Positions 3,956 to 62,441 of a stretch of DNA of 64,000 nucleotides are shown one piece after another. The position numbers and the translations under genes were made by a program. Under the pieces are notes generated by a model, which saw nothing but the letters and a program-made list of their open reading frames with translations, was not told where the DNA came from and ran no database searches. Origin of the DNA: Sphingomonadales bacterium Ga0077557 (GTDB taxonomy: Bacteria; Pseudomonadota; Alphaproteobacteria; Sphingomonadales; Sphingomonadaceae); contig LNFI01000007.1 of the NCBI GenBank assembly GCA_001464615.1, forward strand, positions 62,001 to 126,000, given 5' to 3'. Each line of letters starts with the position of its first letter. The first letter of the stretch is position 1.

Positions 3956-3962
3956 GCGTTTC

Positions 3963-5102
3963 ATGATCCGTGCCCTGGTTACCCTGATGATCGCGTTAGC
4001 GCTTGGCGCGTGCGCGAGCCATCCGGCGGCGATTACTTTTCATGCCAATGAGAATCCGGAGTCGCTGGCGGACTGGGGCTTATTCGACGTGAAAGACGGC
4101 CACATCGCGCCGCGCGCTGGCCTTGTCAGCTACGAACTCGCAACGCCGTTGTTCAGCGATTACGCCCAAAAATGGCGCGCGGTGTTCGTCCCCAAGGGGA
4201 TGAGCGCGCACTATGATCCGGTGAAGACCTTCGACTTTCCGGTCGGCACGATCATCGCCAAGACTTTCTATTATGCCACTCCGGTTGGCACTGCGCCCGG
4301 CACAAGCGAACATGTGCTGAAGGTCACGCCCGCAGGCTATCAGCCAGGCGACAAGGGGCTCGATCTCAGCCATGCCCGAATGATCGAAACCCGGCTGCTG
4401 GTGAAGCGCGCGGACGGCTGGCAGGCGCTGCCCTATGTCTGGAACGCAGAGCAGACCGAGGCGACGCTCCAGCGCACGGGGGCTGAAATTCCGCTGGTTT
4501 TTGATGATGCTGGCAAATCTACCCGCTTCACCTACACCGTCCCCAATGTGAACCAATGCGCCGGCTGCCACGCCACCGACCGGACCAAGACGCTGATGCC
4601 GATTGGCCCCAAGGCACGCCATCTGAACCGCGATTTTCCAGGCATCGGTGGCGACATCAACCAACTCACACGGCTCACAAAGATCGGCTATCTCTCGGGC
4701 GCGCCCTCACCCGCTACCGCACCCCGCGATGCCCGCTTCACTGATCTAACGGCCAGTATCGACGCCCGCGCCCGCGCCTATCTCGATATCAACTGCGCGC
4801 ATTGCCACAGCGCCACCGGCCCGGCCCGCGTTTCCGGCCTTTGGCTCGATTCACCGACAATCGACATGCGCAAGCTCGGCACGTGCAAACCGCCAATCGC
4901 CGCCGGCACGGGTACGGGCAACCGCGTTTACAGCATTGTCCCCGGCCATCCCGAGCAATCGATCATGGCCTATCGGCTGGAAAGCGATAATCCCGGCGAA
5001 ATGATGCCCGAAAATGGCCGCAGCCTGACGCATGCCGAGGGCGTGGCGCTGATCAAGCAATGGATCGCCGGGTTGAAGGGCGGATGTGAGGCTGGAGCTT
5101 AG
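3963..5102 (+). CDS. SO2930-family diheme c-type cytochrome lipoprotein
   Basis: The protein begins with a lipoprotein signal (ALALGACAS) and carries two c-type heme-binding motifs, CAGCH near residue 200 and CAHCH near residue 280, the second within a typical cytochrome c segment ([11 protein letters not shown]). A C-terminal Met-rich stretch (GEMMPENG) may supply an axial ligand. Its N-terminal half shows no recognisable cofactor site and matches what is known of the HNE_0200/SO2930 family only by layout. It follows the beta-helix lipoprotein by 7 bp and is almost certainly cotranscribed with it, suggesting a periplasmic redox function coupled to a surface or matrix component. Its stop overlaps the convergent gatB stop by 4 bp. 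Confidence 0.85.
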
Positions 5103-6580
5103 GACAGCGCCTTTTTCAGCAGATCATTAACGACCCCCGGATTGGCCTTGCCGCCCATCGCCTTCATCGTCTGGCCGACGAAGAACCCGAATAACTTGTC
5201 CTTGCCGCCGCGATAATCGGCGACCTTGTCGGCATTGGCGGCCATTACCTCGGCAATCACCGCTTCGATTGCGCCGGTGTCGCTGGTCTGCTTGAGCCCG
5301 CGCTCTTCAACGATCACGCCGGCGCCCTGCCCGGTCTCCAGCATGATTTCGAACACCTGCTTGGCCAGGCTGCCCGACAAGGTGCCATCGGCGACCAGCC
5401 CCAGCAACTCTGCGGCCTGTGGCGGGGTTACCGGCGAATTGGCGATATCCTTTCCGAGCCGGTTGAGCGCGCCGAACAGTTCCGATGTCACCCAGTTCGC
5501 GCCCGCCACCGCTGGCGATCCCGCTTCGAGCAGCGCATCGAACCAGCGCGCGGCATCGACATCCGCCGTCAGCACGGCGGCGGCATAAGGCGTAATCCCC
5601 AGTGCCTCATAGCGTTTGCGCTTGGCATCGGGCAGTTCGGGCAGGCTCGCGCGGCACTCGGCGAGGAAATCATCCTCCAGCACCAATGGCAGCAGGTCCG
5701 GATCGGGGAAATAGCGATAATCATGCGCGTCTTCCTTTGACCGCATCGACCGCGTCTCGTTGCGATCGGGATCATAGAGCCGCGTTTCCTGGACGATCCG
5801 CCCGCCGTCTTCGAGCACCGCGATCTGGCGCTTCGCCTCCTGCTCGACCACGGCCATCACGAAGCGGACCGAGTTAACGTTCTTGGTCTCAGTGCGCGTG
5901 CCGAGGTTGGTATCGCCCACCTTGCGCACGCTGACATTCACGTCAGCGCGCATCGATCCCTGATCCATATTGCCGTCGCAAGACCCGACATAGCGCAGGA
6001 TCGACCGCAGCTTCGATAGATACGCCCCCGCTTCCTGCGGGGAGGTCATGTCGGGTTTGGACACGATCTCCATCAGCGCGACGCCCGACCGGTTGAGGTC
6101 GACATAGCTGCGCGTCGGGTGCTGATCATGCATCAACTTACCCGCATCCTGCTCGACATGGATGCGCTCGACCCCGATCCGCTTGGTCGCGGCATCGGGG
6201 TTCTTGTCGTCAAGGCTGATCATGATCGCGCCCTCCCCCACGATCGGGTGATAGAGCTGGCTGATCTGATAGCCCTGCGGCAGATCGGCGTAGAAGTAAT
6301 TTTTCCGGTCGAACCGCGACCATTTGTTGATCTGCGCCTCGATCGCCATGCCGGTGCGCACCGCCTGGCGGATGCACTCGCGGTTGGGCACCGGCAGCAT
6401 GCCAGGCATCGCGGCATCGACGAGGCTCACCTGCGTATTGGGCTCCGCGCCAAACGCGGTGGCGGCGCCAGAGAACAGCTTGGCGTTGGAGGTGACCTGT
6501 GCATGGACCTCGAGGCCGACAACGACCTCCCAATCGCCGGTGGCGCCGGAGAGGGTGTACTGGGGGGATGCGTCAGCCAT
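5099..6580 (-). CDS. gatB: Asp-tRNA(Asn)/Glu-tRNA(Gln) amidotransferase subunit B
   Basis: GatB activates the side-chain carboxylate of misacylated Asp-tRNA(Asn) or Glu-tRNA(Gln) for amidation. The family phrases are clear: VGLEVHAQV near the N terminus, [29 protein letters not shown] and [17 protein letters not shown], then the YqeY-like C-terminal tail domain. The ATG at 6580 ([10 protein letters not shown]) is preferred; a more distal in-frame ATG at 6643 would lie inside vapC and add an atypical leader. The start overlaps the vapC stop by 8 bp, so gatB translation is likely coupled to the toxin gene. It is the last gene of the gatC-gatA-vapB-vapC-gatB series. Confidence 0.95.
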
Positions 6581-6980
6581 GATCAGTCTCGGGTGTGATA
6601 AGGGTGAGTTCGGGAAAATATTGGCGGTAACGACGCGGATCACGGGTGATCAAGGGTCGTTGCTCAGTCACTGCATGCGCACCGATCAGGAAGTCGGCAA
6701 GCAGTTTTTCGCGGGTGCCCCCCGCCCGACGATAAGCCGCTTGCGCCAAGCCGGCGCGTAAGCCCGCCTCAACCGTCAGCGCTTGAGGTTCAATCTCGAA
6801 AACAGCGAGTTGCGTCATGATTTCGGCTTCCCCAGTACCGCGTGCGACCAGTTCACCCAGCACAATTGCACTGGTCGTCAGCCCGTCTGAGACCAACCGA
6901 GCCAATGTGCCAACCGACCACTCGAACCACTCACCATCCTCTTCACGCAGATCGACGATGATATTGGTATCCACCATCAT
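6573..6980 (-). CDS. vapC: PIN-domain ribonuclease toxin (VapC-like)
   Basis: This 135-residue PIN-domain protein has the acidic residues expected of a VapC metal site: VDTNIIVD at the N terminus, a glutamate in [19 protein letters not shown] and a final Asp in ITRDPRRY. VapC toxins of this type cleave specific RNAs, often tRNAs, when the cognate antitoxin is degraded. The ATG overlaps the vapB stop by 4 bp (ATGA), the normal vapBC arrangement. The 3' end runs 8 bp into gatB. The target RNA cannot be read from the sequence. Confidence 0.9.
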
Positions 6981-7255
6981 GGCGGAAACGGATCGTCGCC
7001 GCGAATGTCGCGCATGATCTCATCCGTCGGTCGGCCTTCCCGCAGATGCGCGAACCGTCGCGACACTTCACGAACGCGGGTCTTGTAGGCTTCGATCTCG
7101 GCGGCGCGATCACGCACCGGACGGCGAATCACAGCCTCACCCGCATCATTCCAGTCGAATTCGACAGGTTCCCCGGGTTTCAAGCCAAGCGCGTCACGGA
7201 CATCCTTCGGGATGGTGACCTGCCCCTTCACGGTTAGGTTGCTTTGCTTGCTCAT
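6977..7255 (-). CDS. vapB: AbrB/MazE/SpoVT-type antitoxin (VapB-like)
   Basis: The N-terminal 50 residues form a swapped-hairpin AbrB DNA-binding domain (LTVKGQVTIPKDVRDALGL followed by KPGEPVEF), and the basic, helical C-terminal half is the likely toxin-neutralising tail. At 92 aa it is typical. It is followed by the overlapping PIN toxin gene. A perfect inverted repeat lies 8 bp upstream of its ATG and is the obvious autoregulatory operator. It is located 33 bp after gatA and thus interrupts the gatCAB order. Confidence 0.9.
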   Translation of the reverse strand: MSKQSNLTVKGQVTIPKDVRDALGLKPGEPVEFDWNDAGEAVIRRPVRDRAAEIEAYKTRVREVSRRFAHLREGRPTDEIMRDIRGDDPFPP

Positions 7256-7262
7256 AACTCAA

Positions 7263-7284
7263 GTATTACCATTTCAGGTAATAC
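7263..7284. promoter_or_regulatory. Probable VapB operator (inverted repeat)
   Basis: Perfect inverted repeat GTATTACC-N6-GGTAATAC with AT-rich arms, between the gatA stop and the vapB start. Its position 8 bp upstream of vapB and its symmetry fit an operator bound by the AbrB-type antitoxin or the VapBC complex. If occupied, it could also affect read-through from gatA into gatB. Binding is inferred. Confidence 0.65.
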
Positions 7285-7288
7285 GCGT

Positions 7289-8773
7289 CTACCACCAAGC
7301 CCCCGGTCGCGCCGTAAACCCTGCCCGCTCTTCCAACGCCAGACATGCATTGAGCACGCCCTGCTCGTCCAGCGCACGCCCAATGATCTGCAACCCCAGG
7401 GGCAACCCCGCCTTGTCGAGCCCGCCCGGCACGCTCATCGCGGGGAGGCCCGCGAGCGAGGACGGCACCGTGAAAACGTCGTTCAGATACATCGCGATCG
7501 GATCGGCGCTCTTCTCGCCCAATGCGAAGGCGGCGCTTGGGGCGGTGGGGGTTAGCAGGTAATCGCACGCCTCGAACGCGCGATCGAAATCGCGGGCGAT
7601 CAGCGTGCGGACCTTCGAAGCCTGTGTGAAGTACGCGTCGTAAAACCCAGCTGACAAAACATACGTACCGATCATGATCCGGCGCTTCACTTCATCGCCA
7701 AAGCCCGATGCGCGCGTCGCCGCATACATGTCCTGCAAGTTCGCGCCGTCGGGCAGGTCACGCAGGCCAAAGCGCACGCCGTCATAGCGCGCGAGGTTGG
7801 ACGAGGCCTCCGCAGGCGCAATGATGTAATAGGCGGGCAGCGCATATTTGGTGTGCGGTAGCGACACCTCGACGATCTCGGCCCCCGCATCCTTCAACCA
7901 GTCGATGCCCTGCTGCCACAGTGCATCGATTTCGGGGGGCATATTATCGACGCGGTATTCCTTGGGGATGCCGATCCGCTTGCCCACCATGCTGGCATTA
8001 AGGCCAGCTTCCCATTTGGGCACTGGCAGGTTGAGCGAGGTCGAATCTTTCGGATCGAAGCCCGTCATATTCTCCAGCAGGATCGCGCAATCGCGCACGC
8101 TTCGCGCCATTGGCCCGGCCTGATCGAGCGACGAGGCGAACGCCACCACGCCCCAGCGCGAGCAGCGGCCATAGGTCGGCTTGATGCCCGAAATGCCGAC
8201 AAAGGCGGCAGGCTGGCGGATCGAACCGCCCGTGTCGGTGCCGGTCGCACCCGGGCAGAGCCGCGCCGCGATAGCCGCTGACGAGCCGCCCGACGACCCG
8301 CCGGGCGCGAGCGGGGCATTGCCGCCATCCGCCCGCCGCCAAGGCGAGATTACATTGCCGAACGCGCTGGTCTCGTTCGACGATCCCATCGCGAATTGGT
8401 CCATGTTGAGCTTGCCGAGCATCCCCGCGCCAGCCGCGAACAAATTGCCCGAAACGGTCGATTCATACTGCGGCGTAAAGCCTTCAAGGATCAGGCTGGC
8501 GGCGGTGGTCGGCACGCCTTTGGTGCAGAACAAATCTTTCATGCCGATCGGCACCCCGGCGAGCGGCTTGAGCACCTCGCCAGCGGCGCGCGCGGCATCC
8601 GCCTCTTTGGCGGCGGCAATGGCATGATCGGGCGTTTCGACTAGGAAAGCGTTGAGCGGCTTGGCCTTGCTGACCTTAACGATGAACGCGTCGGCGACTT
8701 CGCGCGCCGAAAAAGTCCCCAGACGCACACCATCGCGGATGGCGGCGATGCCGAGTTCGGTAACATCGGTCAT
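7289..8773 (-). CDS. gatA: Asp-tRNA(Asn)/Glu-tRNA(Gln) amidotransferase subunit A
   Basis: GatA is the glutaminase subunit that releases ammonia from glutamine for the transamidation carried out with GatB. The amidase signature is intact: the catalytic lysine in [12 protein letters not shown], the cis-serine loop [10 protein letters not shown] and the nucleophilic serine in [12 protein letters not shown]. Length is 494 aa, as in the family. Its ATG overlaps the gatC stop by one base (TAATG), so it is coupled to gatC. Downstream, after 33 bp, vapBC begins instead of gatB. Confidence 0.97.
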
Positions 8774-9060
8774 TATTCGATCACCTTGGGCACGGTGAAA
8801 AATCCATGTTCGGCCTGGGGCGCATTGGCGAGCACCGCGTCACGGACATTGCCATCCGACACGACATCATCGCGCAGGCGGAGCGTATTGGCGATCACGG
8901 CGGTCATCGGCTCAACATTGGCGGTATCGACCTCGCCGAGTTGCTCGATCCAGCCCATGATATTGTCGAGCTCGGGCGCGATGCGCGCGGCTTCTTCCTC
9001 GGTGATCGCGATCCGGGCGAGACTCGCGATTTTGCGGACGGTGGGAATGTCTACTGCCAT
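8773..9060 (-). CDS. gatC: Asp-tRNA(Asn)/Glu-tRNA(Gln) amidotransferase subunit C
   Basis: The small GatC subunit wraps between GatA and GatB and stabilises the complex. The N-terminal helix pair ([34 protein letters not shown]) is split here into recognisable phrases such as IASLARIAI and ELDNIMGWI, and the C-terminal strand ([10 protein letters not shown]) is the usual family ending. At 95 aa it is full length. It lies 38 bp after the DUF4153 membrane gene on the same strand, so the promoter may lie upstream of or within that gene. Confidence 0.96.
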
Positions 9061-9098
9061 GCAGGTGCGGCTAGCATCACGGCTCGCTGCAACGCAAC

Positions 9099-10868
9099 CT
9101 ATTCGAACGGTTCGCCCACGGGCACGCCGCCGACAAACACCTGACGGCGCGGCACGGTGCGCACTTCAACCTCGCCATTGGTGAACCCCTTGGCCAGCTT
9201 GGTCCGCAGATCGGCGGGCATTTCGGTTGGACTACCGCGATTGGTTGCCGCCCATACGCCCTTGTCGAGCACCAGACGCGTGACCTGACAATTGGGTGCG
9301 ATCACCATGCCTGCAGTCGTGGCTGCTTGCGGCGGTGCCTCAAAACACTCGGCCTGAATTACCCAAGCTTCGGTCGCGCCGGGAGAATAAAGCAAGGTGC
9401 ACCGCGTTTTGGGGGTCATCCCGCACGCCTGCCACTCGGGCAATTGCGTGAGCAGCGCCGGAGGCACGGGCACTGGTTTGGGCAGGATACGCAACCGATC
9501 AGCAATCCCGGCCTGGGCTTTGGCTGCCTGCGCCAGCTGGTCTGCCTGATAACGATCGGGCGCGGCCATGATCTCCTTCGCCCGCGCAGCGATGGCGGGA
9601 TCGGCGGAGCGCGCCAATCGCTTGAGTGCCGCCTGGCCCGGCACGCCGAAATCAAACCCCAGCGCTTTCCAGTCGAAATTATCGACACTGACCCGGCCCG
9701 AGGTCAATCGCGCGACCTGATCGGCGGTCGACAGGGCATTGAAGCTCAACAGCGGGGTTGCGAGGAACAGCGCCACCGCCGCCACCGCAAAGCCAAGCAC
9801 GATGTTTGCCGATCGGGCAAATGGCGCCCAATCGGTCCGCCCGCGCGCCAGCGACACCAGATAGGCCAACCCATAAGCGGTCGCGAGGATCACGAAGGTC
9901 AGCGCCCAGAGGCGATCGGGCGTGAAGCCATATTGGTTGATCCTTAAGCCTGTTGCGATCGCCGCAATCGCCGCCAGCGGCAGCATCGCCAGCGCCAGCA
10001 TCATCGCGCCATAGCGCAGCACGGGATTGCGCGCCTCGTCATCAATCCCGTTGCCGATCACCGCATTGGCCAGGATCAGCGCACCAACCACGCAGCTCAG
10101 CAGGATCGGCGTGGTCGATCGTGTCGCCTCCCACAGCGCGCTGAGCCCGGTAAAGGGTAGCAGCAAAAGGAACAGGATCAGCCCGATACCCAGCACCGGC
10201 GCGAGGACGCCAAGCACGGCCGTCACCACGCGCTGCAACAGCCGCACGATCCGGTCACGCTCGCGCATCAGCCCGACCGCGCCGCCAAACGCCGCGCCGA
10301 TCAGCAGCGCGATAACCCAGTCCTTCTGCAGCAGCTTTTCGAGGAAATCGATTCTAACCAGATTGAATAATGCCGCGAGCAGCCAGGCCATCGCAAACAC
10401 AACGCCGACGAAAATCCAGCCAGCAAACCACAGAACAACATTGGTCCAGGCATGGCCGTGCAGATCGGCATAGGGGAAGTGCCAGCGGCCCTCGTCGCGT
10501 GCGGTCTGAAAAATCGGGGCGGCGATGGCAATCGCCAGGAACAGGCTGGTCAGCCGCCAGTTCCAAAAATCGGGCGAGCCGCCCGGCGTCCCCTGCCAAT
10601 AAACGATCAGCCCCGCCGCCAGACCAATCACGATTGTGAACGCAATCGCCCAGCCGAGTCGGACCTTTTCAGCGACGAACCCAAAGCCGATCGCCGCCGT
10701 ACCGATGCCGATCGCCACCGCGACCCGATCAACCGGTGGGGCAGAACCCTGGCCAAGCAATTGCTGGATAGCCAGCGCAGCAGCGGCGCCAATGCCCGCC
10801 AGCAATAATGGCCGCACTGGCCATGCGCCACCTGCCGGGCCATCCTGCTCTGTGACAAAGGCATCCAT
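9099..10868 (-). CDS. DUF4153 domain multi-pass membrane protein
   Basis: About ten hydrophobic segments fill the first 400 residues, beginning [15 protein letters not shown], and a soluble C-terminal part of about 190 residues follows. The pattern and sphingomonad context fit the DUF4153 family; function is unknown. The ATG at 10868 is preferred because AAGGAAA lies about 10 bp upstream; an in-frame ATG at 10895 has no such site. The C-terminal segment contains two nearby cysteines ([13 protein letters not shown]) and another two further on, which may form disulfides if periplasmic. It is transcribed toward gatC. Confidence 0.75.
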
Positions 10869-50617: not shown

Positions 50618-52804
50618 ATGATGAAGAAATTCTTTGCCGCCGGGGCGTTGCTATCGACCTGTTTGAGCGGCCCCATTTCCGCCGCACCGATCGGCGACGC
50701 GACCCAGCGCCGCGCCCAAGCGCACGACGTGCGCATTACCCGCGACGATTGGGGCATCGCCCATGTTCAGGGTAAAACCGATGCCGATGCCGTGTTCGGG
50801 ATGATGTACGCCCAGGCAGAAGACGACTTCAACCGGATCGAGACCAACTATCTCGTGTCGCTTGGGCGGCTGGCCGAAGCGGAAGGGGAAAAGGCGCTTT
50901 GGCAGGATCTGCGCCAACGCCTCTATATCGATCCCAATGATCTGCGCCGCCACTATGCCGCATCGCCTGCCTGGCTGAAGGCGCTGATGATCGCCTGGGC
51001 TGACGGTCTCAACCATTATCTCGACACCCACCCCAATGTGCACCCGCGGGTCATCCGCCGCTTCGAACCCTGGATGGCGCTGAGTTTTTCGGAAGGCAGC
51101 ATCGGCGGCGATATTGAGCGCGTTGCGCTGAAACCGCTTGAGGGGTTTTATGGGCCAAAGCGGCTGGCGCTCACCGATTCCACTAATCCCCGCGCCTTTA
51201 AAGAGCCCTCAGGCTCAAACGGCTTTGCGATTGCCCCTGCGAATACCAGGGACGGCCACGCGCTGCTGCTGATCAACCCGCATACCAGCTTCTTCTTCCG
51301 CAGCGAGTTGCAAGTCACCAGCGATCAGGGCCTGAACGCCTATGGTGCCGCCACCTGGGGGCAATTTTTCATCTATCAAGGGTTCAACCAGCATGTTGGC
51401 TGGATGCACACATCGAGCGGTGTCGATTCAGTTGATGAGTTTCTGGAAACAATTGTCGAGCAGAACGGCCGCCTTTTCTATCGTTACGGCAAGGCGCTGC
51501 GCCCGGTGACGACGAAGAAGATTACCCTCGCCTATCGCCAGCCCGATGGCTCGATGACCGAGCGTAGTTTCACGGGTTACGCCACGCATCACGGCCCCAT
51601 CGTGCGCGCTGAGGGCGACAAATGGGTCGCGATGGCGCTGATGAACACGCCGGTGCCCGCGCTCGAACAGAGTTTCCTGCGCACCAAGGCGAGCGATTTT
51701 GCGTCTTACATGAAGGTGATGGCGCTGAAGGCGAATTCGTCGAACAACACCATCTTTGCTGACGACAAGGGCGAGATTGCCTATCTCCACCCGCAATTCG
51801 TCCCCAAGCGTGATGATCGGTTCGACTATACCAAGCCAGTCGATGGCAGCGATCCCGCGACCGACTGGCAGGGGCTGCACGCGCTGTCCGACTTGCCGCA
51901 ACTGGTCACACCCGCCAATGGCTGGATCGCCAATACCAACAACGCGCCTTGGTCGGCAGCGGCCAGCGAAAGCCCGAAACAAGCCAGTTATCCGCGCTAC
52001 ATGGATACCGCAGGCGAAAACCCGCGTGGCCTGCACGCGACTCGGGTATTGAGAGATCGCAAGGATTTCACGCTAGATGGCCTTCGCGATGCCGCCTATG
52101 ATCCCTATCTCACTGCCTTCGCGCCTTTGATCCCGGCGCTAGTTGCCGCCTGGGATGGGCTGGCCGCCGATGATCCGCTAAAGGTCAAGCTCGCTGATCA
52201 AATCGCCGCCCTGCGCAGCTGGGACTTTACCTGGAGTGCTGATTCTATCCCCACTTCCCTTGCGGTGTTCTGGGGCGAGGCTCTGTGGGGCGATACGGTC
52301 AATGATCTCGATCTCGAAACGGCGGGCCTAGGGCGTTATCAGCACCTGCTGGCAGTCGATCCAGCGCGCAAACTGGCCGCTCTCGTCAAGGCATCCGACC
52401 GGCTGACCGCCGATTTCGGTAGTTGGCGGACGCCCTGGGGCGAGATCAACCGCTTCCAGCGTAACGACGGCGCCATCACCCAGCAGTTTGACGATGCCAA
52501 ACCGAGTATAGCGGTGCCCTTTGCCTCAGCCCAATGGGGCTCGCTCGCCTCGTTCGGGGCGCGGCGCTATCCAGGGACAAAGCGCTATTACGGCACAAGC
52601 GGGAACAGCTTCGTTGCTATCGTCGAGTTCGGCGATCGCGTGAAAGCGCGCGCCGTGACGGCGGGCGGCGAAAGCGGTGACCCCGCCTCAAGGCATTTCA
52701 GCGATCAGGCAGCACGTTATGCCAGCGGGGCCCTTCGCCCCGTCTATTTCTACCCTGACGACCTGGCGGGGCATATCGCGCGCAGCTATCACCCGGGGCA
52801 ATGA
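50618..52804 (+). CDS. Penicillin-acylase-family amidohydrolase
   Basis: A 728-aa Ntn-hydrolase with a signal peptide ([22 protein letters not shown] in part). The self-cleavage site and nucleophile are at the G-S-N in [12 protein letters not shown], as in acyl-homoserine-lactone acylases and penicillin acylases; the conserved segments ARDTRDG and NPHTSFFF follow. It is autoprocessed into alpha and beta subunits in the periplasm. Substrate is unknown, but quorum-signal amides are a common activity. Its stop is 4 bp from the rutB start. Confidence 0.88.
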
Positions 52805-52808
52805 CGCC

Positions 52809-53534
52809 ATGACAGTCGACAGCAACCCCGGCACCGCCGGCCCCAAGGTCACCCTCCCCGCCCGACCCGAAGCGGTTCGGATGTCGGCAAACGATACGGC
52901 GGTCGTCGTGATCGACATGCAGAATGCCTATGCGAGCGAAGGCGGCTATGTCGATCTCGCTGGGTTCGACATTGCGGGCGCGGCGGGGACGATCGGCAAG
53001 ATCGCCACCGTGCTCGATACCGCGCGCCAGGCCGGCGTACAGGTGATCTATCTGCAAAATGGCTGGGACCCCGATTATGTCGAGGCAGGCGGGCCGGGAT
53101 CGCCCAATTGGCATAAATCAAACGCGCTGAAGACGATGCGCGCCCGGCCTGAACTGTCGGGGCAATTGCTGGCGCGCGGCGGCTGGGATTATGACCTCGT
53201 CGATGCGCTCAAGCCGCAGCCGGGTGACATCTCGCTCCACAAGACGCGCTATTCCGCCTTCTTCAATTCACAGCTCGATAGCGTGCTGCGGGCGCGCGGC
53301 ATCCGGCATATCGTGTTCGTGGGCATCGCGACCAATGTGTGCGTCGAAAGCACGCTGCGCGACGGGTTCCACCTCGAATATTTCGGGGTGATGCTGGAGG
53401 ACGCAACGCATCATCTGGGCCCGCCCGCGATGCAGGAAGCGACGGTCTTCAATGTCGAGAAATTCTTCGGCTGGGTGTCGACGGTCGCCGATTTCTGCGG
53501 CACCTTTAGCCAAATGCCCGAACAACAAGGATAA
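52809..53534 (+). CDS. rutB: Peroxyureidoacrylate/ureidoacrylate amidohydrolase RutB
   Basis: RutB hydrolyses the ring-opened ureidoacrylate product of RutA, releasing carbamate. The isochorismatase-type fold is clear: [16 protein letters not shown] with the catalytic Asp, [15 protein letters not shown], and the cysteine nucleophile in [16 protein letters not shown]. The start at ATG 52809 lies 4 bp after the acylase stop. It is the first of the rutB-rutC-rutD-rutA set. Confidence 0.94.
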
Positions 53535-53539
53535 ACGCC

Positions 53540-53923
53540 ATGCCCTTCGAAGCGATCAACCCGCCGCAATTCCCAACCCCCATCGCGCCGTTTTCAGCCG
53601 GGACCAAGGCCGGGAACACGGTCTATGTCTCGGGCACGCTCGCGCTCGGTGAAGGCGGCGTCGTGCTCCATCCGGGCGACGCGACCGCGCAGACCCGGCA
53701 TGTGCTTGAGGTGATCAAGACGACGCTGGAGGCTGCTGGCGCGACGTTGGCCGATGTCGCCTTCAACCACATCTTCCTGAAGGACTGGGCAGATTATGCC
53801 GCGATGAACGCGGTTTATGCCGAGTATTTTCCGACTGCCAAGCCTGCGCGCTATTGCATTGTGTGCGGGCTGGTGAAGCCGGATTGTCTTGTCGAGATCG
53901 CGAGTGTTGCGCACATTGGCTGA
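53540..53923 (+). CDS. rutC: RutC (RidA-type 3-aminoacrylate deaminase)
   Basis: A 127-aa YjgF/RidA family protein. [22 protein letters not shown] and [20 protein letters not shown] in pieces fit RutC, which speeds 3-aminoacrylate hydrolysis. It follows rutB by 5 bp. The following 139 bp to rutD are a palindromic repeat rather than a gene. Confidence 0.92.
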
Positions 53924-53934
53924 GTCCTCACATT

Positions 53935-54056
53935 CCTCCCCGGTACGGGGAGGTGGCGGCCGCAGGCCGACGGAGGGGGTGCGCCACGCAATGCAGCCTT
54001 TGCGGCTCGCCCCCTCCACCATGCTGCGCATGGTCCCCCTCCCCGTGCCGGGAAGG
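53935..54056. repeat. Palindromic intergenic repeat inside the rut operon
   Basis: Nested inverted repeats: CCTCCCCG-GTA-CGGGGAGG at 53935-53953, GGAGGGGG with CCCCCTCC (about 53973/54011), CCATGC-TGC-GCATGG at 54019-54033 and CCTCCCCG-TGC-CGGGAAGG at 54038-54056. The whole can fold into a large cruciform; the style is that of sphingomonad REP-like elements. Confidence 0.6.
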
Positions 54057-54062
54057 ATTTGA

Positions 54063-54848
54063 GTGCCGCACGCTTCCGGCCTTTACTACGAAACGCACGG
54101 TGCCGAAGACGCGCCGCCGCTGATTCTGTCCTCGGGCCTCGGCGGATCGGCGAGCTACTGGACCCCCAATATCCTGGCGCTCGCCGAGCATTACCGCGTC
54201 ATCGCCTATGATCATCGCGGCACCGGGCGCAGCGACCGCGCGCTGCCTAACGTGGTGACAGTCGACGATTTCTCCGACGACATCCTTGCGCTGATGGATG
54301 CGCTTGCCATCGAGCGCGCGCATATCGTCGGTCATGCGGCAGGCGGGGTCGCGGGGCTGGCGCTCGCACTGAAGGCACCGCAGCGGCTCAACAAGCTGGT
54401 CGTCGTCAACGGCTGGGTCGCACCCGATCCGCATTTCGCGCGCTGTTTCGATGTGCGGCTTGCCCTGCTGCGCCACGCCGGCCCCGCCGCTTATGTCCGC
54501 GCGCAACCGATTTTCTTGTTTCCAGCGCAATGGATTTCCCGGCACAGCGATCGTCTTGATGCGGAGGAACCCCTGCATCTCGCGCACTTCCCGCCGTCCG
54601 AGAATATCGAGCGACGTGTCGCCGCGCTCAAGGCCTTTGACATCGCCAATCGCCTGGGCGCGATCGACACCCCGATATTGGCACTGGTGTCCGCAGACGA
54701 CATGCTGGTGCCCGCTTATTGCTCTGACCCGATCGAGGAGCAAATTACGAGGGCACGGCGCGTAACGATGCCGTGGGGCGGCCACGCCTGCAACGTCACC
54801 GACCCCGATACCTTCAACCACATCGTCATCGAATTTCTGGGAGCATAA
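54063..54848 (+). CDS. rutD: RutD, aminoacrylate-hydrolase-type alpha/beta hydrolase
   Basis: A 261-aa alpha/beta-hydrolase-fold protein. The family phrases are [25 protein letters not shown] and [16 protein letters not shown] at the C terminus. The usual nucleophile serine is replaced: the elbow reads VGHAAGG, which matches the Ala at this position in known RutD proteins. RutD aids removal of toxic 3-aminoacrylate. GTG at 54063 has AAGGA upstream. Confidence 0.93.
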
Positions 54849-54853
54849 CCACC

Positions 54854-55912
54854 ATGCAAGTCGGCGTTTTCGTGCCCATCAACAATAATGGCTGGCTGAT
54901 TTCGGAGAATGCGCCGCAATATATGCCAAGCTTCGATCTCAACAAGGAGATCGCCCAGCGCGCCGAAAAATACGGGCTCGATTTCCTGCTCTCGATGATC
55001 AAGCTGCGCGGCTTTGGCGGCAAGACCGAGTTCTGGGAATATGGACTTGAAAGCTTCACGCTGATGGCCGGCCTCGCCGCGGTGACCGAAAAGATCAAGA
55101 TCTACGCGACCTGCCCCACCCTCATCATCCCGCCGGCCTTTGCCGCGCGGATGTGCAACACGATCGATTCGATCAGCCATGGCCGCTTTGGGCTGAACCT
55201 CATCACCGGCTGGCAGAAGCCCGAATATTCGCAGATGGGGCTGTGGCCCGGCGAGGACCATTTCCGCAATCGCTACAAGATGTTGGATGAATACGCCCAT
55301 ATCCTGCGTGAATTGTGGGAGACGGGGCGGAGCGACTTCAAGGGCGATTATTACCAGATGGACGATTGCCTCGTCCGCCCCAAACCGACCGGCGACATGA
55401 AGATCATTTGCGCAGGCTCCTCGGACGATGGCCTCGCCTTCTCGGCGCAATGGGCGGATTATGCCTTTTGCCTCGGCAAGGGGGTCAACACGCCGACCGC
55501 CTTTGCCTTCAACAACGAACGCCTCGCCGCCGCCACCGCGAAGACAGGCCGCAATGTGTCCGTGTTCGTGCTCGTCATGGTCATCGCCGCCGAGACCGAC
55601 GAAGAAGCCATGGCCAAGTGGAAATCCTATAATGACGGCGTCGATCACGCCGCCATCGCCTGGCTCGCCGATCAGGGCGCAGCCGACAAGGTCAACGCGA
55701 CGACCAATGTTCGCCAGCTTGCCGCCCCCGAAGGCGCCGTCAACATCAACATGGGGACGCTGGTCGGATCGTATGCGAGCATCGCGCGGATGCTCGACGA
55801 GATGGCCGAAGTGCCGAATACTGGCGGTGTGTTGCTGACTTTCGACGATTTCATCGAAGGGGTGGAGGCATTTGGCCAGCATATCCAGCCGCTGATGAAG
55901 AGCCGGGGGTAA
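54854..55912 (+). CDS. rutA: Pyrimidine monooxygenase RutA
   Basis: RutA is an FMN- and flavin-reductase-dependent monooxygenase that opens the uracil ring between N3 and C4. The 352-aa protein has the luciferase-like fold and family phrases [21 protein letters not shown] in pieces, [21 protein letters not shown], and [12 protein letters not shown]. It starts at ATG 54854, 5 bp after rutD. No rutF flavin reductase, rutE or rutG transporter is visible in the window. Confidence 0.96.
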
Positions 55913-55925
55913 TCCCCTCCCCTCT

Positions 55926-56019
55926 GTCACCCCGGACTTGTCCCGGGGCCTACCGCGCCGCAAACACAACAGCCGAGGTGCACGAACCACGATGGGCCCC
56001 GGAACAAGTCCGGGGTGAC
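55926..56019. repeat. Large inverted repeat between rutA and nadE
   Basis: Arms GTCACCCCGGACTTGTCCCGGGGCC (55926-55950) and its complement (55995-56019) agree at 24 of 25 positions around a 44-bp loop. The CCCCGGACTTG-type palindrome is a widespread sphingomonad intergenic element. It may double as a terminator for the rut operon. Confidence 0.7.
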
Positions 56020-56103
56020 GCTGGGAGCCTTTGGGAAGTCGCGGACGCTCTTTGACATTGCCCGTGATGGCATTTGTCTTCGCGGACGTTTAGGACCCCC
56101 CTC

Positions 56104-58161
56104 ATGGCTATCCTGAAATCGCACCGTTTCTATTCCATCCACGCGCAGGAAATGGTGCGCGTCGCCGCGACCACACCGCGCGCGACGGTGGGCGATCCCG
56201 CGACCAATGCGGTTGCGGCGATCGATCTGGTCAAGAAATCGGCGGCGAATGCGGTCGACTTGATCGTCTTCCCCGAACTCAACATGTCGTCCTACGCGAT
56301 CGACGACCTCCACATGCAGCCCGCCCAGCACAGCGCAACCGAAGCGGCCATCGCGAAGCTTGCCAAGGCGACCGCCAAGCTGCCGACTGTGATGCTCGTC
56401 GGCGCGGCGATCCCGCGCAACGGGCGGCTCTATAATTGCGCCATCGCCATCGCGCGCGGCAAAATCCTGGGCGTCGTCCCCAAGACCTTCCTCCCCAATT
56501 ACCGCGAATTCTACGAAAAGCGCTGGTTCGCCAGCGGCGCGGGGTTGACGGGCATGGAGATCGACCTGGCCGGCCAGCGCGTGCCGTTTGGCACCGACCT
56601 GATTTTCGCCGCGAGCGACCTGCCGCATTTCGTCTTCCATGCCGAAATCTGCGAGGATTTCTGGTCGCCGACCCCGCCCTCCACCACCGGTGCGCTGGCG
56701 GGTGCCTATATCTGCTGCAACCTCTCCGCCTCCCCCATTCTGATCGGCAAGGCGCGCGACCGCGCGATGCTTGCCTCGGCACAATCCTCGCGCGCGATCT
56801 GCGCCTATGTCTTCTCCGCCTCCGGACCGGGCGAAAGCACCACCGACCTCGCCTGGGATGGGCAAAGTTTGATCTACGAAAATGGCGACCTGCTGAAGGA
56901 ATCGCAGCGTTTCCGGTGCGAGGCCGACACGATCGTCGCCGATATCGACGTGGCGCGCCTCAGGATCGAGCGGATGCGCAACGGCACGTTCAACGATGCC
57001 GCACGGCTGGCGGGCGACCCGGAATATGAGTTCCGCCGCGTCACGTTCGAGCACAAACCCGATTTCGCCGATGTCGGCCTGCAGCGCGACCTGCGCCGCT
57101 TCCCCTTCGTGCCCAACACGCCCGAGCGGCTCGATGCCGATTGCTACGAAGCCTTCAATATCCAGGTCGAAGGGCTGATGAAGCGGATCGAGGCATCGCA
57201 CGCCAAGCGGCTTGTCCTCGGGATTTCGGGCGGGCTCGATTCAACCCATGCGTTGATCGTTGCGGTCAAGGCGGTTGATCGGATGAAGATCCCGCGCGAC
57301 CATATCCTGGCCTATACAATGCCGGGCTTTGCAACGAGCGACGGCACCAAGGCCAATGCCTGGGCGCTGATGCGCGCGCTGGGCGTTGCGGGCGACGAGA
57401 TCGACATTCGGCCCGCCGCCAACCAGATGCTCGCCGATATGCACCACCCGCATGCACTGGGCGTGAAGCAATATGACGTGACCTTCGAAAATGTTCAGGC
57501 GGGGCTGCGCACCGATTATCTCTTCCGCCTCGCCAACCAGCATGATGGATTGGTCGTCGGCACAGGCGACTTATCCGAGCTCGCGCTTGGCTGGTGCACG
57601 TATGGCGTCGGCGATCACATGAGCCATTACGGCGTGAACGCGGGGGTGCCCAAGACGCTGATCCAGTATCTGATCCGCTGGACGATCGCGACCGACTTCT
57701 GGGACGCGGAAACCGAGCGGGTATTAGAGGCGATTCTCGCCACCGAAATCTCACCCGAGCTGGTGCCTGCAGGCGACGACGGCCTGATCCAGAGCACCGA
57801 AGCGCGGATCGGGCCCTATGAGCTCCACGATTTCTTCCTGCACTACACGATCCGCCAAGGCCTGCCCCCGTCCAAGATTGCGTTTCTGGCACACCACGCC
57901 TGGAAGGACGTCAACAAGGGTCGCTGGCCCCGCGGTTTCCCGGCCGGCGGGCGGCACAGCTATGATTTGCCGGTCATCAAGAAATGGCTCGAGGAATTTC
58001 TGTACCGCTTTTTCCAGACCAGCCAGTTCAAGCGCTCGGCGCTGCCCAATGGCCCCAAAGTATCCGGCGGCGGCGCGCTCTCCCCACGCGGCGACTGGCG
58101 CGCCCCCTCTGACGGCGTCGCAACGGTGTGGCTGGAGGAACTTCGCGCGAACTGCCCCTAA
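56104..58161 (+). CDS. nadE: Glutamine-dependent NAD(+) synthetase
   Basis: A 685-aa two-domain enzyme converting deamido-NAD to NAD with glutamine as nitrogen donor. The N-terminal nitrilase-type amidase domain has the catalytic Glu in [13 protein letters not shown], Lys in [19 protein letters not shown] and Cys-proximal [11 protein letters not shown]. The C-terminal synthetase domain has the P-loop [14 protein letters not shown] and [12 protein letters not shown]. Start at ATG 56104. It lies after the inverted repeat. Confidence 0.95.
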
Positions 58162-58264
58162 TCGCTGCTACGTCGGCAAATTTGTAAAAGGTTGCGGTCA
58201 AGTGCCGCTGCGTGCCGTCCGGGGATTGCCCGACACCCCGTTATTGGGCGAGACTAGCGCATCG

Positions 58265-58299
58265 TTGCCCTGGATTGGGCAAAGGCGTGGCGGTATACT
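58265..58299 (+). promoter_or_regulatory. Putative promoter/operator of the first AraC gene
   Basis: TTGCCC-TGGATT-GGGCAA is a perfect 6-bp inverted repeat (58265-58282) that overlaps the -35 area of a TATACT -10 box at 58294-58299. A second, looser copy, TTGCCC...TTGGGCGA, occurs at 58226-58251. This suits an autoregulated AraC promoter. Confidence 0.45.
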
Positions 58300-58337
58300 C
58301 TGAAGCGGAGTCTTCTAGGGCCGCCGAGAGGATGGTG

Positions 58338-59252
58338 ATGGTTCAACAAACTACCACAAGCTATCGATCGCAAACGGGCTATGCCCCGATTGATGCCGTC
58401 CGCTATGGTCAGGCCGCGCTGGTGGAGCCCCATCACCACAGCGAAACCGATATCTTGATGTATCGCATGTCGGGTGCGGCGGGCGCCACTGGGATGACCG
58501 AGGCTGTCCGCATCGGTGACGAGCCCGATCTTTTGTTCTTATCTCGCGGCACCGGTATGGCGGCTGAGGGCAAAGTCGCTGGTACCCGATTTACCCTGCA
58601 AGCAAATCGCGATCTGCGCGCAACCTTCGTTCCACGCGGGGTTGACACATCCGTCACCTTCGCCGCTTCTGCCTATTCAAGCAACCTGATGTTCCCCAGG
58701 AATTATTTGACCTCACTGCTGGAAGGCCGGAACCGAGACGGATTTCGGCCGATTACGTTCACCGACGAAAAGTGCATCATTCAGCTCTACCAGTTGCTCG
58801 AAGCAGAAATCATGGAGCCGGGGTTTGCCTCCCGCCTGGTCGTGGAAGGGCTAAGCCGCGCGATTGCAGCAAAGCTGATTGGCATTGATCCGACAGCCCT
58901 GCATCTTGAAGCCGATCGCATCCATCTACCGCCGTGGAAATTGCACCGTTTGCTCGAATTCATTGAAGGCAACCTGGACCGAGAAATTCATTTGAAGGAA
59001 TTGGCTGACGTCGCGGGTCTGTCTGTGTTTCACTTCTCCCGTGTGTTCAAACACTCGACGGGCGCGTCGCCCTATCGCTACGTCTGTGAAAAGCGTTTGG
59101 AACGTGGCCGATCACTGTTGGCAAAAACCGAGCTGGGCATCGCTGAGCTCGCGTTAAGCTGTGGCTTTTCCAGCCAATCCCACTTTACGGCCGCGTTTAC
59201 AAAAGCAATGGGCGTATCGCCGGGCCGTTTCCGCCGCGAACGCCGCCTTTAG
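58338..59252 (+). CDS. AraC-family transcriptional regulator 1
   Basis: A 304-aa regulator with a divergent N-terminal ligand domain and a C-terminal double helix-turn-helix: HLKELADVAGLSVFHFSRVFKH and GIAELALSCGFSSQSHFTAAFTKAMGVSPGRFRR in pieces. ATG 58338 is preferred, with GAGAGGA 7 bp upstream. It shares the arrangement and several phrases of the next gene. Confidence 0.88.
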   Translation: MVQQTTTSYRSQTGYAPIDAVRYGQAALVEPHHHSETDILMYRMSGAAGATGMTEAVRIGDEPDLLFLSRGTGMAAEGKVAGTRFTLQANRDLRATFVPRGVDTSVTFAASAYSSNLMFPRNYLTSLLEGRNRDGFRPITFTDEKCIIQLYQLLEAEIMEPGFASRLVVEGLSRAIAAKLIGIDPTALHLEADRIHLPPWKLHRLLEFIEGNLDREIHLKELADVAGLSVFHFSRVFKHSTGASPYRYVCEKRLERGRSLLAKTELGIAELALSCGFSSQSHFTAAFTKAMGVSPGRFRRERRL

Positions 59253-59469
59253 CAATGCCGGGCCTGTGGCGTTCACGCGCATTTTCGGCCTATACTGAGT
59301 TTCCCTTTTTTTGTCGAACATTGCGGTTTCAGTGAATCGCTCCACCTATCCGGGTTGATCGACCAAGCCGACAAGCCGACAATTACAGCGTTGGTTGGGG
59401 TGGATGGGCCTATTCGGAAGCATAATCCCACCAACATGGTCAGCGAGCGATTTGGAGGCGGGAGCTTCA

Positions 59470-60384
59470 ATGGTCGAGCAAAATGGCAAGAAAAGCGGTG
59501 CCAGCGTCATGCCGCCGCCGGGCCGGGGGCAACCATATGTCCATACCCCAAGCCCAACCTTCCTAAATAGCGAGACAGGCATCACGCTGTTTCGCCTCCC
59601 TTGTGCCAATCAATCAAGCGAAAGGCAGATAGCCGAGCGGACCGAATCCAGCCCCGATATGCTGTTAATTTCCCGCGGATCGGGCACATCGGCGTTCGGA
59701 AAGATGGCCGGATCACCGTTCAGCGTTCCGGCAACCACTGCCGTCCGCGCAACCTTCACCCCACGAGGGACGGATAGCCACATTATCTACAGTCCCACGG
59801 CGCAAACCTTCGGGCTGTATTTTCCCGGCGATTATTTAAAGAATCTGATGACGGACGCTCAACAGCATTGCGCCTTTAACCCCCTCCTATTCCGAGAAGA
59901 TGCGCAGCTTTGTCATCTGGCCCAGATCATCGAATCAGAAATAGCAGGGCCTGGCTTTGCTTCGCCAATGGTGATCGAAGGAGTCAGTCGCGCCATCGCC
60001 GTGGTCCTGCTGCGCTTTGATCAAAGGCCAATTCTGGCAGAGGCTGAACGGATTAAATTGCCGCCATGGCGATTGCGACGCGTGCTCGATTACATCGATT
60101 GCCACCTGGAGGACGACGTCCGCCTGTGTAATCTGGCCGCAGTTGCCGGACTATCGACCTTTCATTTTGCCCGCGTGTTCAAGCAAGAAACCGGGGTAAC
60201 CCCCTATAATTATGTCCGCGACCGCCGGATTGAGCGGAGCCGGGCCCTGCTGATCGAGGACAAGCTTGGTATCAGCGAGCTGGCGCTGGCGTGCGGCTTT
60301 GCAAGCCAGTCACACTTCACCGCAGCGTTCAGCAAGGCGGTTGGGACGTCACCAGGCCGATTCCGGCGCGAAAATCGGACTTAA
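59470..60384 (+). CDS. AraC-family transcriptional regulator 2 (paralogue)
   Basis: A 304-aa paralogue of the preceding regulator; helix-turn-helix segments LCNLAAVAGLSTFHFARVFKQ and SELALACGFASQSHFTAAFSKAVGTSPGRFRR match phrase by phrase. The N-terminal domains share LLFLSRGTG/LLISRGSGT and FPRNYLTSL/FPGDYLKNL. Start at ATG 59470 with GGGAG upstream. A TATACT box lies at 59291-59296. It converges on the LLM gene. Confidence 0.88.
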   Translation: MVEQNGKKSGASVMPPPGRGQPYVHTPSPTFLNSETGITLFRLPCANQSSERQIAERTESSPDMLLISRGSGTSAFGKMAGSPFSVPATTAVRATFTPRGTDSHIIYSPTAQTFGLYFPGDYLKNLMTDAQQHCAFNPLLFREDAQLCHLAQIIESEIAGPGFASPMVIEGVSRAIAVVLLRFDQRPILAEAERIKLPPWRLRRVLDYIDCHLEDDVRLCNLAAVAGLSTFHFARVFKQETGVTPYNYVRDRRIERSRALLIEDKLGISELALACGFASQSHFTAAFSKAVGTSPGRFRRENRT

Positions 60385-60459: not shown

Positions 60460-61488
60460 TCAGGCAGCGACCAACTTCTTGCGCATAACCTGATCGGCAA
60501 AGCGCTCCATCTCTTCCGCTTGCGGGCTCATCTGAAGCAGCAGCAAGTCCAGCCCTGCCGCTTCATATTCCTCGATCCGTTCCCGCAGTTGCTCGGGCGT
60601 GCCGATCAGGTTGGGGCGCAGGCCTCGGTTCGACACCGAATATTCCTGGATCTTCATCTCGCGCTCCAATTGGGTGCCCGATAGCCATTGATCGAAATTG
60701 TCATAGCCAGCCGGCAAATCATTTACCTCGGTGATCCGCTTGAGTTCGCGCTGCGCTTCCGCTTCGCTGTCACGGACGATGGCATAGGCAGCCATGCCAT
60801 AGTGCATTGGCGGCTTGCCGACCGCCGCACGGCGTTCCGCCATATTCGCAATCTTGGGCGCGATATTCTCCACAGGGTCGCCGTGCATGACATAGGCGTC
60901 GCACTGATTGACGATCAGTGTTTTGGCTGCCTCGCTCTCGCCACCGGCATAGGTAACGGGTTTACGCACCGGCTTGGGGCTGCAGATCGCTTTGTCGGTC
61001 GAATAGAATTTACCCGAAAAATCAAATTCCTCTTCGGACCACAGCCCTTCGACGACATTCAGCCATTCGCTGGTCCGCGCATAGCGATCGTCATGTTGGT
61101 CAAACTGGAGGCCGTAGCGTTTTGCCTCGTCGGCCCACCAGGACGAAACCACATTGAGCGCGAGGCGGCCGCCTGCAATCTGATCGATATTGGCAGCGGC
61201 CTTGGCAAAGAGCGCGGGCTGGTGGAAATTGGGGCGGACGGCGACCATTAGCTCGAGCGTCTCGGTGACGGCGGCCACTGCGGCGGCGGTCGACCAGGCA
61301 TCAAGCGTGGGGGCGCCGACTCCCTTGATGTCGTTCATGTTCAGCTCGGCGATGAGCGAGAGGTCATAACCCCATTGCTCGGACTTGATCGCGAGGTTCT
61401 TGGTATAGGCCCAGCTCGCGTCCATCTGCTCGTCGGCAACATTGCGCAGCCATCCACCGAAAACTGGCATCCAGTACCCGTATCTCAT
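60460..61488 (-). CDS. LLM-class flavin-dependent monooxygenase
   Basis: A 342-aa bacterial-luciferase-like oxidoreductase related to alkanesulfonate/dimethylsulfone monooxygenases (SsuD/SfnG type): MRYGYWMPVFGGWLRNV, the active-site phrase FHQPALFAKAAANIDQIAGGRLALNVVSSWW in pieces, and GESEAAKTLI. It needs reduced FMN from a reductase not seen here. Its ATG overlaps the ATP-grasp stop (ATGA), so both act in one transcript. Confidence 0.88.
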   Translation of the reverse strand: MRYGYWMPVFGGWLRNVADEQMDASWAYTKNLAIKSEQWGYDLSLIAELNMNDIKGVGAPTLDAWSTAAAVAAVTETLELMVAVRPNFHQPALFAKAAANIDQIAGGRLALNVVSSWWADEAKRYGLQFDQHDDRYARTSEWLNVVEGLWSEEEFDFSGKFYSTDKAICSPKPVRKPVTYAGGESEAAKTLIVNQCDAYVMHGDPVENIAPKIANMAERRAAVGKPPMHYGMAAYAIVRDSEAEAQRELKRITEVNDLPAGYDNFDQWLSGTQLEREMKIQEYSVSNRGLRPNLIGTPEQLRERIEEYEAAGLDLLLLQMSPQAEEMERFADQVMRKKLVAA

Positions 61489-62441
61489 GCCCTTGCCTTT
61501 TCGATTGCGCGTTCCAGATAGTCGATCAGATTTTCGTGCGGATCCCAGCCGAGGACGTCGAGCGGTTTAGCCACGAAGTTCGATAACGCATTGATATCAT
61601 AGAAGCGTGGTACGCCATCACGGTCATCAATCATCACTTCGATTCCGCCGACATCAAGCCCCGCCGCGGCGGCGATCCGCTCCGCTGCCTCGATGATGGC
61701 GGGTGCCGGGTCAGCCTTGGTCATCACGATCGGCTTGCCATCGGCGACGCAAGCGTCCGCGGGGCAAAGATCAAATTGTCCGCCACCGTCGATATCGAGT
61801 GCATAGAGATATTTGCGGTCAAGCGTCTCAATCCGCGTGATCCGGCCATCGCGCGCAGGCACATATTCCTGCACCATCAGCACGCCGTCGATGCTGGTCG
61901 GCAGGAACTTGTCGGCAACCGCCAACGCCAGGTCTTCAGGCGTTTCATAGCGCATGATGCCCGCGCCCGATCCGCCGATATTGGCCTTCACCACGATCGG
62001 GAAGCGAAGCGCCGTTGCGGCCTTGGGGATATCGATCGCGCGGTGGACCACGCGCGTCGCTGGCACTGCGTAACCGAGTGCCGAAATTACCGCCAATTGC
62101 CGCGCCTTGTTGGCATCGACCGCCAGCACATCGGCCCCATTGATGATCCGGGCGCCTTGCCCCGCCCAATGCGCGTAGAGCGCGGGGGTGTAGAAGATCG
62201 CATGATCGGCGCTGCGCAGAAAGCTCGACATGGCGAGGCGGCTCAGCACGACCCGCGCGGGCGGTGGCGATCCGGCGGGGTCAAAGCTATGCCCCTCAAT
62301 CCCCAATTTCACATAGTCGATCCCGCGCCGGTCTAGCGCGGCGAATAGGGGCTCGAACCATAAAGGATGTTCATAGAAGACGGCGAGATCGTGCATGGCT
62401 TCCATTCGCTGAGACCGGCCAAGTGTTACACTCTGGTCCAT
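61485..62441 (-). CDS. ATP-grasp (RimK-like) ligase
   Basis: A 318-aa ATP-grasp enzyme: the glycine-rich lid is FPIVVKANIGGSGAGIMRY, the metal-ligand region is GGIEVMIDDRDGVPRFYDINALSNF and the N-terminal strand starts MHDLAVFYEHP. RimK-like ligases join an amino group to a carboxylate; no carrier or substrate is indicated. The start is uncertain: ATG 62441 has a weak AGAG upstream, with alternatives at 62405 and 62396. It is coupled to the downstream LLM gene by a 4-bp overlap. Confidence 0.85.
   Translation of the reverse strand: MDQSVTLGRSQRMEAMHDLAVFYEHPLWFEPLFAALDRRGIDYVKLGIEGHSFDPAGSPPPARVVLSRLAMSSFLRSADHAIFYTPALYAHWAGQGARIINGADVLAVDANKARQLAVISALGYAVPATRVVHRAIDIPKAATALRFPIVVKANIGGSGAGIMRYETPEDLALAVADKFLPTSIDGVLMVQEYVPARDGRITRIETLDRKYLYALDIDGGGQFDLCPADACVADGKPIVMTKADPAPAIIEAAERIAAAAGLDVGGIEVMIDDRDGVPRFYDINALSNFVAKPLDVLGWDPHENLIDYLERAIEKARA

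Follow-up and report, generated by a model that had tools for sequence, protein, structure and literature searches.

A coupled ATP-grasp ligase and luciferase-like monooxygenase gene pair, conserved across bacterial phyla, as a possible organosulfur-scavenging module

A stretch of 64,000 nucleotides from Sphingomonadales bacterium Ga0077557 (assembly GCA_001464615.1, contig LNFI01000007.1, positions 62,001 to 126,000 of the forward strand; hereafter the window) carries a gene for an ATP-grasp ligase followed directly by a gene for a luciferase-like flavin monooxygenase (LLM). The two genes are coupled across phyla, and in some relatives sulfur or amino-acid genes stand beside them. We tentatively propose, with a confidence slightly short of even, that they form a two-gene organosulfur-scavenging module, in which the ligase would conjugate a sulfur amino acid and the LLM would cleave the C-S bond. 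The evidence for sulfur comes from relatives of the pair and not from its own genome. No paper on this ligase-LLM pairing was found in open-licence full texts (most subscription papers lie outside that scope); PMC7794033, in the portions available to us, mentions both enzyme types and treats other enzymes.

The ligase was searched for in 100 genomes including its own, 61 of them in the genus (Sphingomonas, as inferred). Ligases at least 62% identical were present in 24 of these genomes, namely its own and 23 others, all within the genus; the remaining matches were at most 41% identical and mostly short. The LLM lies directly 3' of the ligase in all 23 relatives, with 1 or 4 bases common to both coding regions in 22 of them. 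In the 23rd (L052, 4619-5410), which is at the end of a short contig, there is a 12-base gap, and the LLM can be matched over its first 169 residues only; this copy is therefore truncated or misassembled. The 4 bp overlap that an earlier reading of the sequence alone (the sequence-only reading) had reported for the window is indeed present, as an ATGA that combines the ligase stop with the LLM start, and the two genes are presumably translationally coupled.

The pairing extends well beyond the genus. A scan of named genomes was seeded with the LLM only, that of Deinococcus deserti first, and 80 loci, the best among at least 578 relatives, were kept; they come from several phyla, and many are from metagenome-assembled genomes. 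A ligase of the same family is found upstream and on the same strand in 75 of these 80 loci. In one more (L114) the ligase is cut by the contig edge, with 76% identity over 66 aa to the ligase of L112, and the count is therefore 76 of 80. Three Frankiales-type loci (L110, L111, and L119) have a different ATP-grasp gene within 4.5 kb, its end being 1.7-3.3 kb upstream of the LLM. In 3 of the 75 loci the distance from the ligase end to the LLM exceeds 200 bases; among the 70 pairs with a ligase of at least 280 aa, 63 are no more than 20 bases apart and 50 overlap. Across these 70 pairs and that of the window, the ligase and LLM protein trees correlate at 0.92, a value reached in none of 2000 permutations, and species history common to both proteins explains part of this correlation. 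On these comparisons, the pairing is judged not to be due to chance. The sequence-only reading had called for a search for conserved ATP-grasp and LLM neighbours and had allowed that they might prove rare; instead, the pair is kept both in the genus and across phyla.

What surrounds the pair is far less constant. In a neighbourhood survey of 82 loci (the 80 above and two Deinococcus plasmids), with ORFs called for the purpose over roughly 6 kb, the LLM and the ligase were the only gene families found in more than 7 loci; the pair is therefore a module of two genes that has moved from one neighbourhood to another. Searches at E 1e-80 detected the LLM in 2 of the 398 genomes in a phylum sample (Pseudomonadota), both in the genus, and in 2 of 385 genomes of a class sample (its own and G453). 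Because this distribution is patchy, horizontal transfer is likely. Small peptide genes near the pair, which the sequence-only reading had suggested looking for, did not emerge: a screen of 1525 small ORFs within 700 bases around the ligase start in 70 loci yielded none common to more than 6 loci, and in those 6 the ORF belongs to the end of a gene for tRNA methyltransferase (PF01746). A peptide substrate, as in a modified-peptide (RiPP) cluster, was thus rejected, there being no conserved precursor gene around the ligase start in these loci. An ORF of 71-72 aa lies between ligase and LLM in two planctomycete loci (L149 and L187) and was not seen more widely.

The ligase belongs to the ATP-grasp fold, although its sequence is remote from the named families. 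It reaches the RimK model PF08443 only marginally (21.4 bits; gathering cut-off 21) and stays below the cut-offs of TIGR00768 (rimK_fam, RimK alpha-L-glutamate ligase; 41.9 versus 143.4) and of LysX_arch TIGR02144 (29.9 versus 275.6). An AlphaFold model (pLDDT 89.1, pTM 0.88) has its best fold matches in ArgX (Z 27.5, rmsd 2.4, 275 residues aligned), LysX (27.1), and RimK (26.0), with Z differences under 1 counted as ties, and PsnB and the D-cycloserine synthetase DcsG follow further down. The model thereby confirms a predicted ATP-grasp ligase of the amide-ligase fold. Residues E268, D282, and N284, which we take to be metal ligands, align to the D, E, and N of RimK. Over the 274-277 residues of the ArgX/LysX and RimK matches, identity is only 14-21%, and, in contrast to those enzymes, the ligase has an LCPADxC motif. 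The motif is a signature of this ligase family itself and was also found in 29 of 32 ligase relatives that lack an LLM, the frames of the remaining 3 being truncated or misread. Most aligned orthologues begin at residue 16-17 of the ligase as called, and its true start is therefore probably the ATG at 62396 rather than 62441. Accordingly, the "RimK-like" label of the sequence-only reading stands for the fold and is borderline for the sequence; similarly, its suggestion of an amide-linked product agrees with the type of ligation that the fold implies, while its peptide substrate does not find support.

The LLM clearly belongs to PF00296 (194.9 bits; cut-off 27.9) and falls below the cut-off of every curated subfamily compared: SfnG (TIGR04021, 228.6 versus 382.95), which is its best curated match, SsuD (TIGR03565, 161.5 versus 518.2), the NtaA/DmoA branch (TIGR03860, 109.9 versus 279.7), and RutA (TIGR03612, 90.3 versus 498.3). 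Its nearest solved structures, over the whole length, are 3RAO (419 bits) and 8VW6 (350 bits), which belong to the same LLM clade by sequence and are structure entries only; the open-licence full texts searched held no paper for 8VW6 and, in the parts accessible to us, one passing comparison for 3RAO. A correspondence with MsuD, set by hand on a phmmer alignment, indicates that the LLM has the fold of SsuD/MsuD and keeps the MsuD flavin residues R85, H132, R135, Y136, and S185, as well as the oxygen-pocket residues A83, N112, and V114; these positions are conserved at 97% or more in 71 LLMs. In contrast, the sulfonate-binding W195 and R225, both essential in MsuD, correspond to H202 and A233. 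The identity of the LLM as an SsuD/MsuD sulfonate monooxygenase is thus rejected, from the curated score and from two key residues. The sequence-only reading had considered that the LLM might derive from a sulfonate operon; this does not hold for the enzyme, but the informative partners of the pair in relatives are sulfur genes, and for this reason organosulfur scavenging fits the pair better than natural-product modification.

Sulfur genes linked to the pair in relatives are MetNIQ, EpsC, an SsuE-like reductase gene, and CuyA-CuyB. Genes for a MetNIQ-type ABC transporter (MetN, MetI, and MetQ) lie directly downstream of the pair in 13 of the 23 genus relatives. In the representative locus L036, MetI is above its curated cut-off (220 versus 212), whereas MetN (312.9 versus 499.7) and MetQ (217.7 versus 374) are below theirs; MetQ passes the broader PF03180. 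MetQ is present in 18 of the 61 genus genomes (one a fragment), and 14 of these 18 also have the pair (Fisher p 0.00012, uncorrected for kinship). In 13 of the 14 the two are adjacent, and in G017 they are on different contigs. Two of the 4 genomes with MetQ and without the pair have further sulfur genes. In L191, a TauE/SafE sulfite-exporter gene stands beside MetN. L195 (G054, 973-9462), an island of sulfur genes, has a TonB receptor, an NMT1-type binding protein, a serine O-acetyltransferase, and a Peptidase_C26 gene, together with a fusion fragment in which TauE and MetQ portions share one ORF, as a deletion of the stretch between them would leave it.

Other sulfur partners are found in separate lineages. 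In Sphingomonas sp. TDK1, a serine O-acetyltransferase gene (EpsC, 166.1 versus 150, above the cut-off; CysE, 166.5 versus 210.65, below it) overlaps the ligase start by 4 bases, and such a gene lies within a few kb of the pair in L040, L042, and L046. Among the 16 loci titled Gemmatimonad-, 6 (one of them with a partial match) have a gene for an SsuE-like flavin mononucleotide (FMN) reductase just upstream of the ligase; that of L168 scores 148.6, slightly short of the 164.05 required by the SsuE model. In D. deserti, CuyA (535.2 versus 450) and CuyB (270.8 versus 190), a cysteate sulfo-lyase and racemase, precede another ATP-grasp gene and this LLM; relatives of CuyA and CuyB were not found in the other loci checked. 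Additionally, transporter genes stand beside some pairs: two of the 23 genus relatives have an SDF symporter gene after the LLM, and Hymenobacter has an amino-acid permease gene there (BcaP model, 560 versus 690, below the cut-off). These neighbours suggest importers of the amino-acid type. An SDF (dicarboxylate/amino-acid) symporter followed by an LLM-less ligase relative was also seen in L089 (G312, 5805-7960) and on a Pediococcus plasmid (L108, 4074-6912), where a thioredoxin-fold gene precedes both. A Spirosoma plasmid (L107) carries a 42% identical ligase, two permeases, and an LLM that is only 25% identical to that of D. deserti and is not a member of the present clade.

In the proposed sequence of events, the ligase would couple a sulfur-containing amino acid, or a close analogue of one, with another small molecule at the expense of ATP; the simplest product would be an amide on the amino group of the sulfur amino acid. 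A separate flavin reductase would supply FMNH2 to the LLM, which, with FMNH2 and O2, would break the C-S bond of the conjugate, and the freed sulfur would enter assimilation. Such a sequence of ligation and C-S cleavage would account for the importers and the reductase as well as for the sulfur partners and the tightness of the coupling. Flavin reductase genes are present elsewhere in the pair's own genome (1 PF01613 and 6 PF03358 matches). Two different ATP-grasp clades occur with the same LLM clade, so that, if the route is true, the priming step would have been recruited more than once.

Parts of this scheme have precedents. SfnG, a dimethylsulfone monooxygenase (8T0U) of the same fold family as the LLM, performs flavin-dependent C-S chemistry, and the available portions of PMC8234197 describe no ligase partner for it, whereas this LLM has one. 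A closer parallel is S-alkylcysteine salvage by CmoO and CmoJ in Bacillus subtilis, where, according to the accessible parts of PMC10863075, a sulfur amino acid tagged with N-acetyl is acted on by a flavin oxygenase and its C-S bond is cleaved. The logic of tagging, oxidation, and cleavage is the same, but the Cmo tag is attached by an acetyltransferase, whereas that of the pair would be an ATP-grasp product; moreover, CmoJ, a homologue of YxeK and DszA in the same source, belongs to a different LLM branch. YtnJ (1YW1, 1TVL) matches the LLM only locally, at 53 bits.

We take YtnJ to be CmoJ. The Puu putrescine pathway, in which the amine is conjugated before it is oxidized (gamma-glutamylation, oxidation, and hydrolysis by PuuD), shares the conjugate-before-oxidation logic, with a ligase and an oxidase from other families than those of the pair. 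Peptidase_C26 is the PuuD family, and a gene of this type is near the pair in 2 of the 23 relatives and unlinked in other genomes; of the 61 genus genomes 28 have it, 16 of these being among the 24 that carry the pair (Fisher p 0.017). Removal of a gamma-glutamyl tag by a C26 hydrolase was considered and kept as a hint only, given these two linked cases and the result for the pair's own genome given below. On a Frankiales contig (L110), the gene after the Deinococcus-type ATP-grasp is an amidase-like ORF (3994-5178, forward strand; PRK08310 model, 234 bits, cut-off 391) whose product could, in principle, undo an amide tag.

Several observations weigh against organosulfur scavenging, or against a strict coupling of the two genes. 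Profile scans of the window found the two AraC genes, NadE, and a nucleotidyltransferase beside the pair and no sulfur gene, and the genome as a whole gave no match for a C26 hydrolase at E 1e-30. Within the genus, 10 of the 24 genomes with the pair lack MetQ, and 4 of the 37 without the pair have it. D. deserti is a single case: D. peraridilitoris has the same ATP-grasp gene and LLM without CuyA and CuyB. Since His and Ala replace W195 and R225, a sulfonate substrate is unlikely. In the Frankiales-type loci, other genes lie between the ATP-grasp gene and the LLM. Close LLMs also occur alone, with no ligase within 6 kb in L157 (1 of the 80 loci) and none genome-wide at E 1e-15 in G453, whose LLM is 68% identical. 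Conversely, LLM-less ligase relatives, about 30% identical, are present in about 26 alphaproteobacterial genomes of the class sample, so the ligase family has other uses. Because both partners thus occur apart, the coupling is best described as strong and not absolute. Both ligase-less LLMs adjoin a YHS-domain gene (G453, L104, 7185-8880, 35.1 bits, cut-off 30.3; L157, 5400-7011, 28.1 bits, below it); a by-eye reading of their neighbours as DoxX had no Pfam match and was dropped.

Three other explanations were weighed. The pair could build a small amide, dipeptide, or cofactor-like metabolite that the LLM hydroxylates or N-oxidizes after ligation, with no sulfur role. We regard this as unlikely: the ligase is nearest to the peptide and amide ligases ArgX, LysX, and RimK, with PsnB and DcsG lower, and most loci outside Sphingomonas have no sulfur gene within the surveyed distance, a point that also counts against organosulfur scavenging, but no exporter, carrier, or precursor gene recurs, the limits of 7 in 82 loci for any further gene family and 6 in 70 for any small ORF apply here as well, and sulfur partners arise separately in Sphingomonas, Gemmatimonadetes, and D. 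deserti. Alternatively, the LLM could act first, on a free organosulfur compound, and the ligase could then conjugate the reactive product (an aldehyde, a sulfinate, or the leftover amino acid) as a form of clean-up or trapping. The genomic evidence for sulfur is compatible with both orders, and the two close LLMs without a ligase would suit this one. The order ligase-then-LLM in the 23 genus relatives and the 75 scored loci is a hint, not proof, against it, and tagging precedes oxidation in the known relatives, as far as the accessible parts of PMC10863075 on the Cmo pathway go; we consider this order more improbable still.

Lastly, the substrate could be an amino acid or amine without sulfur, which the pair would modify or detoxify, and the sulfur genes would then be chance or secondary partners. 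The SDF symporters and amino-acid permeases point to an amino-acid-like substrate without naming sulfur, and the pair's own genome has no match for MetQ or CuyA, which also tells against an organosulfur role. Yet, of the 14 genus genomes with MetQ as well as the pair, 13 have MetNIQ adjoining it, and the nearest curated family of the LLM, SfnG, is a sulfur enzyme, albeit below its cut-off. We hold modification or detoxification of such a substrate to be the least probable of the three alternatives, and the organosulfur module, tentative as it is, remains our preferred explanation.

The features of the locus are listed in Table 1. As the sequence-only reading had it, the pair faces two paralogous AraC regulators: regulator 2 ends at 60384 on the forward strand and the LLM stop is at 60460 on the reverse strand, tail to tail, and the two regulators are 48% identical over 271 aa. 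As general regulators of the pair, the AraC genes were rejected. At E 1e-10, no relatives were found in L031-L053 or L099, and relatives 45-65% identical lie beside the pair in only 4 of the 80 scan loci (L140, L154, L167, and L169); in these Sphingomonas contigs, two or three AraC paralogues are downstream of the LLM. G680 has a weak 33% match, at a looser setting only. None of the 23 genus loci contained a match to the uncharacterised nucleotidyltransferase. A promoter scan found none, with 1.1 expected. In L031, the locus with the closest ligase relative, the pair likewise has RutA and NadE nearby.

Table 1. Coordinates of the gene pair and surrounding features in the window.
Feature	Position	Strand	Remarks
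LLM (luciferase-like flavin monooxygenase)	60460..61488	-	342 aa; PF00296; nearest solved structures 3RAO/8VW6
ATP-grasp ligase	61485..62441	-	318 aa as called; probable start 62396 (~303 aa)
ATGA, overlap of ligase stop and LLM start	61485..61488	-	4 bases common to both genes
LCPADAC motif of ligase, residues 225-231	61749..61769	-	two invariant Cys; family signature
SNRGLRP loop of LLM, residues 286-292	60613..60633	-	position of the MsuD sulfonate-binding RGG loop
AraC-family regulator 2	59470..60384	+	start by inspection; longest ORF 59395-60384; convergent with LLM
AraC-family regulator 1	58338..59252	+	start by inspection; longest ORF 58212-59252; paralogue of regulator 2
RutB, RutC, RutD, RutA, glutamine-dependent-type NAD synthetase (NadE)	52677-58161	+	all above curated cut-offs
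RutA	54773-55912	+	second, distinct LLM of the window; 643.8 bits, cut-off 498.3 (TIGR03612)
Nucleotidyltransferase PF14907	62683-63831	+	uncharacterised; 151 bits; divergent from the pair, on its upstream side

Overall, we rate the pairing of an ATP-grasp ligase with an LLM as a variant of flavin-dependent organosulfur use. The broader claim, that an ATP-grasp enzyme primes an organosulfur amino acid for C-S cleavage by a new LLM clade and that this is an undescribed sulfur-scavenging route with a wide distribution in soil bacteria, is distinctly more doubtful. Flavin enzymes that break C-S bonds determine which organic sulfur bacteria can use, and the pair is conserved in many uncultured soil phyla, including Acidobacteria, Gemmatimonadetes, Planctomycetes, and Verrucomicrobia. 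If true, the proposal would add an ATP-dependent priming step to flavin C-S chemistry, and the LLM clade, which has structures (3RAO and 8VW6) and no assigned reaction in the literature searched, would gain a function open to testing; the pair is small enough for reconstitution in one tube.

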